From a virus, in the IMG/VR virus record IMGVR_UViG_3300035678_000006, positions 1-32,358 of that record: DNA of 32,358 nucleotides. The stretch is one strand, 5' to 3'. Below are positions 1-18,631 of the stretch, one piece after another. The translations under genes were made by a program, and so were the position numbers. The notes beneath the pieces are model-generated. The model was not told where the DNA came from. It saw only the letters and a program-made list of their open reading frames with translations, and did no database searches. Within the stretch, counting starts at the first letter, position 1; every line of letters starts with the position of its first letter.

Positions 1-37
1 CTTCTGCGTATCCTTGGTTGGCTAGTTAATAGCAAAT

Positions 38-3359: not shown

Positions 3360-3545
3360 ATGCAGTTTCAGCAAGTCATCGAGATGGTCAAGAGCACGCC
3401 CACGGACGCGCTGTGCGCGGCCTGGAGCGCCACAACCGCCGACGTGCTGGACTGCAAAAACGGCGAACGCCCCGTGACCATCCGAGAGGCCGGGGCGCTC
3501 GCCGAGCTGCATGGCATGAAGCTACTGGACATTCTCGCCGTCTAG
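3360..3545 (+). CDS. Small Cro-like HTH protein
   Basis: This 61-aa protein reads as a degenerate XRE fold: a DALCAAW segment, then TTADVLDCKNGERPVTIREAG, then AELHGMKLLDIL. That resembles the second half of HTH repressors of the type that binds through a short helix-turn-helix. I chose the ATG at 3360 because GGGGGA precedes it by 8 bases; the frame is open further upstream. It faces the repressor gene at 2867 and would be the Cro-like partner. Its last 24 bases overlap tail-to-tail with the reverse gene at 3522. Confidence 0.7.
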   Translation: MQFQQVIEMVKSTPTDALCAAWSATTADVLDCKNGERPVTIREAGALAELHGMKLLDILAV

Positions 3546-3776
3546 GCGACGCTGGGCACGTCCGGCCAGTTCAACATAAGACATGCCGAGTGCGCCGGCT
3601 ATGTCGGCGAAGGCCGGGAGTGGGATATCTCGCTCACCATTGAGGTACCGGTGCAGCGTCGTGCGCGGTATCCCTGAGTGTTCCGCCAGGTCCGGCTGCT
3701 TCCATCCCCGCTCCGTCAGCTCGACCTTAATCTGAACGGCCGTAGCGGACTGAATGTCGTGTCCATAAGTTCCCAT
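3522..3776 (-). CDS. XRE-family HTH transcriptional regulator (putative repressor 2)
   Basis: This 84-aa protein carries a full XRE helix-turn-helix at about residues 16-68 (LTERGWKQPDLAEHSGIPRT, then RYLNGERDIPLPAFADIAGAL). No dimerisation domain follows. Its ATG has no ribosome-binding sequence. Instead a -10-like TAAAGT ends exactly 6 bases before the A, so the mRNA is probably leaderless, as for lambda cI from PRM. Operators overlap both promoter spacer and start codon, pointing to autoregulation. The 3' end is antisense to the end of the 3360 gene. Confidence 0.88.
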   Translation of the reverse strand: MGTYGHDIQSATAVQIKVELTERGWKQPDLAEHSGIPRTTLHRYLNGERDIPLPAFADIAGALGMSYVELAGRAQRRLDGENVQ

Positions 3777-3783
3777 ATGGATA
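3770..3783. promoter_or_regulatory. Operator O1, over the start codon of repressor 2
   Basis: TTCCCATATGGATA follows the pattern TNCC-N4-GG shared by four sites here. Its centre lies half a base from the A of the reverse-strand start codon at 3776 and 20 bp from O2. The outer arm bases are imperfect. Confidence 0.55.
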
Positions 3784-3812
3784 CTTTAACTCCCATATGG
3801 GGAAGTTAACAA
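3777..3812 (-). promoter_or_regulatory. Leftward leaderless promoter of repressor 2
   Basis: Read on the reverse strand, TTGTTA (3812-3807) is followed by an 18-bp spacer and TAAAGT (3788-3783), each 4 of 6 to consensus. Six bases later comes the ATG at 3776, which would be the +1. Operator O2 fills the spacer. The geometry is identical to the rightward promoter at 3892. Confidence 0.6.
3790..3803. promoter_or_regulatory. Operator O2, in the leftward promoter spacer
   Basis: CTCCCATATGGGGA contains the perfect palindrome CCCATATGGG at 3792-3801. It lies within the 18-bp spacer of the leftward promoter, its centre 8.5 bp from the -10 box, the same distance as O3 in the opposite promoter. Confidence 0.6.
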
Positions 3813-3891
3813 TCAGCGCCCTTCGAACCCTGTACTCGACTTCGCTAACACCACTACTTGCTACAGCGGCACGCGGTACTCGCTTTTCGGG

Positions 3892-3921
3892 TTGACAGCG
3901 TTCCCGTTTGGGAACTATGGT
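3892..3921 (+). promoter_or_regulatory. Rightward leaderless promoter of the 3928 gene
   Basis: A perfect TTGACA (3892-3897), an 18-bp spacer and TATGGT (3916-3921) precede the ATG at 3928 by 6 bases, so transcription should begin at the A of the start codon. Operator O3 lies in the spacer and O4 over the start codon. Confidence 0.75.
3901..3914. promoter_or_regulatory. Operator O3, in the rightward promoter spacer
   Basis: TTCCCGTTTGGGAA has perfect 5-bp arms around four bases. It sits between -35 and -10, where a bound regulator would block polymerase. Its centre is exactly 20 bp from that of O4. Confidence 0.65.
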
Positions 3922-3935
3922 TTCCGTATGGAAAC
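3920..3935. promoter_or_regulatory. Operator O4, over the start codon of the 3928 gene
   Basis: GTTTCC-GTAT-GGAAAC has perfect 6-bp arms. The start codon ATG (3928-3930) lies inside it, with the operator centre half a base from the A, mirroring O1. Confidence 0.65.
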
Positions 3936-4176
3936 AAACACCGCTGTAATTACGACAGCCACCAACCGGAACATCCTTCTTGGCATCGTCCAGAACGACA
4001 CAACCAAGTCAGCCACCGCCCGCAAAGCCGGCATCCCCATGACGACCTTCGACCGCAAGATCAACGGCGGCGGGGACTTCACACTCCGCGAGCTCGGAGC
4101 AATTGCCGAAGCCCTCGGCCTCACCCTCGCCGACATCCTCCCCATCGAGATCATCACCCGCCGGAATGCGGCGTAA
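3928..4176 (+). CDS. Cro-like HTH protein, probable leaderless mRNA
   Basis: This 82-aa protein resembles small XRE/Cro proteins: SATARKAGIPMTTFDRKING forms the helix-turn-helix at about residues 27-46 and ELGAIAEALGLTLADIL the following helices (about 54-70). The frame is open back to a TTG at 3892, but that TTG is the promoter -35 box, so the ATG at 3928 is the start. No ribosome-binding sequence precedes it, in line with a leaderless transcript. Divergent from repressor 2 and sharing its operator type, it is likely the opposing switch protein and first gene of the rightward early transcript. Confidence 0.8.
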   Translation: METNTAVITTATNRNILLGIVQNDTTKSATARKAGIPMTTFDRKINGGGDFTLRELGAIAEALGLTLADILPIEIITRRNAA

Positions 4177-4178
4177 TC

Positions 4179-4418
4179 ATGGGCCGCATCTCACAGTCCT
4201 ACGCCACAGCCCAGGACATGGCGGCGAAATACAGGCTCAGCAGCTACACGGTACGCCGGAAAGCCCAGACGGGCGAATGGCCCTGCGACCGGATCGGCAG
4301 ACTCTACCGATTCTCACCTGACCAGCAAGACCAGATCGCGCAGATCGTAGCCGGCGCACAGCGCGGCGGATACGACAAAGACCGCATCGCCGCAGCACTC
4401 CGCAAGCTCTCCACCTAA
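4179..4418 (+). CDS. Excisionase-like (MerR-type winged HTH) protein
   Basis: This 79-aa protein has a MerR/excisionase-type HTH at about residues 9-50: TAQDMAAKYRLSSYTVRRKA, then a GEWPCDRIGRLYRFS wing. Such small proteins act as recombination directionality factors that bend attachment-site DNA so the integrase excises, though some are plain regulators. The ATG lies two bases after the upstream stop with a weak ribosome-binding sequence. Expression from the rightward promoter would let excision follow loss of repression. The excisionase role is inferred; the DNA-binding fold is the firmer call. Confidence 0.72.
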   Translation: MGRISQSYATAQDMAAKYRLSSYTVRRKAQTGEWPCDRIGRLYRFSPDQQDQIAQIVAGAQRGGYDKDRIAAALRKLST

Positions 4419-18493: not shown

Positions 18494-18565
18494 GGGTAGG
18501 TAGCCCATCTGGTGACGGGCCGGGTTTGATCCCCAGCGAGGCAGGTTCGATTCCTGCACTACCCA
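18494..18565 (+). tRNA. tRNA-like element, anticodon uncertain
   Basis: GGGTAG pairs with CTACCC (6 bp; the seventh pair is G-A), A18565 is the discriminator, the D-arm is GCCC...GGGC with GG in its loop, and the T-arm is GCAGG-TTCGATT-CCTGC, fully canonical. The anticodon arm is poor: CCGGG-TTTGATC-CCCAG has a C-A mismatch and T at position 37. By canonical numbering the anticodon is UGA, yet the variable loop is short, unlike serine tRNAs. It may be an unusual phage tRNA or a decayed one. Confidence 0.55.
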
Positions 18566-18631
18566 CGGCGGCCCCAGTGCCGCTCCCATGAGTAAGACCG
18601 CCGGACTATTCACCCGGCAGGAGGCGCCAAG

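Follow-up and report, generated by a model that had tools for sequence, protein, structure and literature searches.

The lysogeny switch in the 32.4-kb IMG/VR virus record analysed here over its full length (the window) is best explained as a leaderless divergent switch in which a small repressor acts on four operators and the two halves of the switch contact each other across a DNA loop, a reading that we consider probable. The region serves an Arthrobacter-type phage as its lysogeny switch, with a repressor gene opposed to a lytic gene, and in type it resembles the switches of the Arthrobacter phages Zucker, Maja, Shoya and Bauer. As in other phage immunity switches, divergently transcribed genes for an HTH repressor and an HTH Cro-like protein adjoin excise and integrase genes, and the operators overlap both promoters.

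The repressor gene (3522..3776, minus strand) encodes an XRE/HTH_3 protein of 84 aa (Pfam HTH_3, 1.7e-8), which shares 75% identity with Zucker gp42, annotated as 'immunity repressor', and its ATG at 3776 is predicted to be leaderless. In the AlphaFold model of the monomer the protein forms a single domain of five helices (pLDDT 88.8), and its nearest folds include ClgR and controller proteins of R-M systems, e.g. C.Esp1396I. The first gene of the lytic operon (3928..4176, plus strand) encodes a Cro-like HTH protein of 82 aa (HTH_26, 6.7e-6; PHROG 4583 transcriptional repressor, 6e-13), a homologue of Maja gp33, whose ATG at 3928 is likewise predicted to be leaderless. Next in the cro operon lies the gene of an excisionase-like HTH_17 protein (4179..4418, plus strand; PHROG 1840 excisionase, 3e-4), relatives of which carry the annotation 'excise'; an excise-type gene is found 3' of cro in most of the loci compared below. 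Several unrelated-looking excise/HTH_17 types occupy this slot, often with a 4-nt overlap, and this variety suggests module swapping. On the other side of the switch, a 61-aa gene (3360-3545, plus strand) converges on the repressor gene and overlaps its 3' end, and the repressor codons within the overlap (Leu78 CTA, Val83 GTC) do not vary among the relatives, which is what an antisense coding overlap would lead one to expect. The window further contains, at its left end, a tRNA-Ser(GCT) (37-128) that is a possible attachment site, a tRNA-Ser(TGA) at 18494-18566, and directly after int a perfect 16-bp inverted repeat with a 5-nt loop (2823-2859), a strong terminator candidate.

Both genes are preceded by promoters of the same geometry. 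The repressor promoter (3783..3812, minus strand) consists of the -35 element TTGTTA (3812-3807) and, after an 18-bp spacer, the -10 element TAAAGT (3788-3783), which is followed after 6 nt by the ATG at 3776. In the cro promoter (3892..3921, plus strand), TTGACA (3892-3897) is separated by 18 bp from TATGGT (3916-3921), and again 6 nt precede the ATG at 3928. All promoter, start and site coordinates of the initial annotation were confirmed, as was its statement that a ribosome-binding sequence is lacking, since no Shine-Dalgarno-like sequence precedes either ATG. Within the window the pattern TTGNNN-(16..19)-TANNNT-(6/7)-ATG occurs twice, at 3776 (minus strand) and 3928 (plus strand) only. 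Leaderless genes amount to more than 20% in Actinobacteria and are recognized there by a TANNNT motif that begins, counted from its first T, about 12 bp upstream of the initiation codon (PMC3160421); mycobacterial mRNAs need no more than an ATG at their 5' end to be translated (PMC4633059). On both sides of the switch the first T of TANNNT lies exactly 12 bp upstream of the ATG, and transcription is predicted to start at 3776 and 3928, which would make both mRNAs leaderless.

For comparison, 71 homologous divergent switches were assembled from Arthrobacter and Propionibacterium phages, viral contigs and Micrococcales prophages, and were reduced to 59 nonredundant loci at a cut-off of 80% identity of the intergenic region. 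TANNNT at a gap of 6 or 7 nt before the ATG was present in all 59 repressor genes and in 57 of the 59 cro-like genes, while any other pair of gaps was seen in at most 9 (repressor) and 2 (cro) loci; as a control, 1061 further ORFs from these loci with a length of 70 aa or more were examined, of which 16 have it. The first 32 loci provide the cleaner test, as their starts were taken from annotation or homology (32/32 repressor genes and 30/32 cro genes), whereas in the second batch the start codon was picked with the -10 element in view. The spacing on whose persistence in relatives the initial annotation had staked its reading is thus kept, and Shine-Dalgarno-like sequences occur in 3/59 loci on each side. 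The annotated starts of ArV2 gp34, Maja gp32, Judy gp41 and Propionibacterium E1 gp31 are located upstream of the conserved leaderless ATG, some of them inside the promoter; these upstream starts of the ArV2, Maja and Judy repressors and of the E1 cro gene are probably mis-annotated. Brujita and Adephagia were also considered as double-leaderless cases and were rejected, as their annotated starts do not have this geometry.

Each promoter carries a pair of predicted palindromic operators. On the repressor side, L1 (GTTCCCATATGGATAC, 3769..3784) lies on the +1/ATG and L2 (ACTCCCATATGGGGAA, 3789..3804) in the promoter spacer; on the cro side, R2 (GTTCCCGTTTGGGAAC, 3900..3915) lies in the spacer and R1 (GTTTCCGTATGGAAAC, 3920..3935) on the +1/ATG. 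Their centres (3776.5, 3796.5, 3907.5 and 3927.5) are 20 bp apart within each pair, and those of the outer operators L1 and R1 lie half a base from the A of the respective ATG. When the 32-kb window was scanned with a PWM trained on the R2 (cro-spacer) sites of the relatives, with the window itself excluded, L2, R2, L1 and R1 took ranks 1 to 4 (19.2, 17.6, 13.8 and 12.1 bits). The next site reached 9.5 bits, so that over the whole window no fifth, stoperator-like dispersed site came near the four in score. At the four sites 6, 5, 6 and 7 of 8 pairs are palindromic; window-wide, the frequency of at least 5, 6 and 7 such pairs is 3%, 0.5% and 0.05%, respectively. The palindromy averaged across the 59 loci has, for both genes, a peak precisely at the junction of the ATG with the base preceding it, with 3.24 of 7 pairs at the repressor and 4.03 of 7 at the cro ATG (R1) against a background of about 1.75; the cro side has a further peak at -20/-21. 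Codon 2 of the repressor gene forms the coding-side arm of L1 and is GGA in 21/21 relatives with Gly at this position; GGA is rare at the conserved Gly codons 35, 47 and 80, and Gly5 is also mostly GGA.

The four sites can be regarded as equal in strength in the window, where R2 is not stronger than L2, but not in the family, in which the cro-spacer site dominates. Mean scores over 22 close relatives were 17.3 for R2, 7.8 for L1, 7.0 for R1 and 5.5 for L2, and R2 exceeded L2 with p 4e-4, although the matrix was trained on R2 and so favours it. As judged by these scores, R2 is the strongest and best-conserved operator of the family, and L1, L2 and R1 are variable, being reduced to half-sites in some relatives; in the Bauer/Hestia group R1 and L1 retain the coding-side arm only. 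In Bauer, Sarge and two further loci (L029 and L030), a conserved TGGGAAATCTTGACCCGATCTTGCG lies between the promoters and includes GGGAAAT, which resembles an additional half-operator.

The distance between the two ATGs varies from 94 to 205 bp among the loci and falls into discrete classes (94-96, 104-110, 116-118, 129-130, 139-142, 150-153, 158-163, 169-173, 191-195 and 201-205 bp), with a few values outside of these (156, 176). All loci together gave a period of 10.85-10.9 bp (R 0.63-0.64), and for the 39 later additions, analysed alone, R was 0.80 at 11.2 bp. A period of exactly 10.5 bp, which was the best in the first 32 loci, was replaced by about 10.9 bp once independent loci had been added. 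Measured between the inner operators (ATG-ATG distance minus 41), the spacing lies at whole turns, with a circular mean of 0.2 bp at a repeat of 10.9 bp. Shared ancestry was controlled for by greedily arranging the loci into independent pairs and comparing length changes of at least 4 bp with jitter. The independent changes (9, 10, 10, 11, 11, 12, 12, 12, 23, 23, 32, 33, 38, 54, 55 and 60 bp) are concentrated at 9-12, 23 and 32-33 bp (p 0.0005). Because the ATG-ATG distance is quantised at about 10.9 bp, the operator pairs can be taken to keep the same face of the helix. In lac loops in vivo the helical repeat is 10.9-11 bp, and 10.9 bp in modelling (PMC8501960), and the operator spacings studied there, 57.5-155.5 bp, cover a range similar to that of the switch family (PMC1762422). 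The short loops of the lac repressor resemble the switches in an effect of operator spacing, which in vivo repeats every 11 bp at distances of about 57-155 bp (PMC1762422, PMC8501960), but differ in that an engineered spacing series and the tetrameric LacI were used, whereas the period of the window family is read from natural variation. The helical phasing typical of loop-forming repressors of the lac/gal type is found here as evolutionary phasing at 10.9 bp, and the whole-turn spacing suggests that repressors contact each other across a short loop.

Between the operator pairs the window contains three TACT[TC]G direct repeats on the cro strand (plus), at 3833, 3855 and 3877 (3833..3882), which have a 22-bp spacing and form the only such cluster in the window. 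Boxes of this kind are present in 29/59 loci, whatever the excise type, at 22-24 bp from each other and in 10.9-bp steps from the cro ATG. They bring up a different account of the phasing, in which the leaderless switch and its repressor are the same, no loop is formed and each operator pair acts alone, the spacing being set by an excisionase, integrase or host protein that binds the boxes in phase with the cro promoter. There are excisionases, 186 Apl among them, whose binding sites are direct repeats at helical spacing that lie between divergent early promoters (PMC7498355). However, the phasing holds with boxes as well as without them and is equally strong in the 30 box-less loci (R 0.71), and the box sequence stays constant while the downstream excise protein changes type. 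Phasing could also arise from polymerase geometry instead of looping. We regard a switch without a loop as unlikely, though the most serious of the alternatives. Of the candidate binders, the excisionase was rejected as the obvious one, since no matching array is present in the window outside the switch and the box sequence is independent of the excise type; integrase arm sites are a less favoured source of the boxes, as nothing like the tandem GTGTACTCAT pair of other loci was seen near the window's int. Such tandem GTGTACTCAT repeats, 12 bp apart, lie downstream of the repressor gene in L006 (about 3720-3745, just before int), L072 (about 3730-3755) and L079 (about 3650-3675) and are likely attP arm-type or excisionase sites.

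The operator arms differ by lineage (TCCC/GGGA, TAGTC/GACTA, TGTCC/GGACA, AACC/GGTT) and track the recognition helix of the repressor, and for this reason the four operators are probably bound by the 84-aa repressor. A partial Mantel test was run on those 47 loci in which the R2 palindrome is clear. Here the recognition helix of the repressor accounted for R2 over and above what the remainder of the protein explained (partial r 0.32, p 0.001), whereas the Cro helix did not covary with R2 (r 0.02, p 0.34). In a wider run with 58 loci the R2 signal was weaker (0.135 for the repressor vs 0.138 for Cro), L2 (0.26, p 0.002) and R1 (0.13, p 0.008) followed the repressor only, the noncoding arm of L1 covaried with neither protein, and control positions gave no signal. 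That the Cro-like protein encoded at 3928 is instead the main binder of the four operators is improbable: it is an HTH protein, and its helix correlates weakly with R2 when all 58 loci are included (partial r 0.14, p 0.012), but it shows no covariation at L2, R1 or L1, and its correlation with R2 vanishes in the clear-palindrome loci. The proposal that one regulator serves both sides fits the covariation of the repressor helix with the arms at R2, L2 and R1. Finally, a chance alignment of ordinary promoters, with the real mRNAs carrying leaders from other promoters, is hardly credible for a pattern that occurs twice in 32 kb, at these genes only, recurs in dozens of relatives and goes along with an almost complete lack of Shine-Dalgarno-like sequences on either side.

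In the looped leaderless switch that we favour, the first base transcribed from each of two divergent SigA-type promoters would be the A of the start codon, at 3776 for the repressor and at 3928 for cro, and both arms would yield leaderless mRNAs of the kind that Actinobacteria translate well. At each promoter, repressor dimers would occupy the palindrome in the -35/-10 spacer and the one on the +1/ATG, two turns apart, and so shut RNA polymerase out of both promoters. An operator arm would at the same time be codons 1-3, because in a leaderless mRNA the +1 is the start codon. The initial annotation had the regulator block the start codon itself; what a repressor on the +1/ATG DNA would block is the initiation of transcription and not the mRNA's start codon. 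As R2 is usually the strongest site, modest repressor levels might silence the lytic promoter and only damp the repressor promoter, resulting in autoregulation. The simplest reason for operator pairs at whole helical turns would be that the bound repressors touch across a short DNA loop.

That both arms are leaderless is supported by the geometry but is not new in principle, since RACE mapping in the immB switch of Yersinia phage PY54 showed that the divergent cI and cro mRNAs both begin at the AUG and have no leader (PMC4488713). PY54 shares this trait with the window switch, where it is predicted from sequence, but has a single 16-bp operator upstream of cI that is bound by Cro, and no mirrored start-codon operator pairs were reported. 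The rep/cro switch of mycobacteriophage BPs is likewise that of an actinophage; PR and Prep diverge, one operator lies within the spacer of PR and a second one overlaps the start site of Prep. It differs by bipartite operators with variable spacers, a 136/103-aa repressor, integration-dependent immunity and more operators genome-wide (PMC4557955), whereas no such sites were found elsewhere in the window. Direct homologues with the same geometry, including annotated immunity repressors, are found in the Arthrobacter phages Zucker, Shoya, Maja and ArV2, for which no promoter or operator analysis was found in the literature searched. Like the repressor, C.Esp1396I is a single-domain HTH protein of about 80 aa, and in its solved structure it forms a tetramer bound to its natural operator (PDB 3clc); R-M controllers differ, however, in having one autoregulated promoter, about 24% identity and no phage switch. 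A family-wide mirrored layout with whole-turn spacing was not found in the open-access literature searched.

Taken together, the analysis points to a rule that applies to a large group of little-studied phages, in which both arms of the switch are predicted to be leaderless, operators lie on both start codons and the halves are spaced by whole turns. We would go further only tentatively, at somewhat less than even confidence, and propose that a repressor of about 80 aa clamps both promoters and leaderless starts in one compact loop, that DNA between the halves is gained or lost in evolution by whole turns only and that this design is widespread in actinophages. If this is true, natural sequence variation gives a direct reading of the in-vivo helical repeat (about 10.9 bp). 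The whole-turn spacing would cleanly indicate that a protein much smaller than lambda CI represses cooperatively or by looping. The conserved distance from the -10 element to the ATG is usable for correcting start-codon annotation, and the covariation of recognition helix and operator could help to predict immunity groups from sequence.
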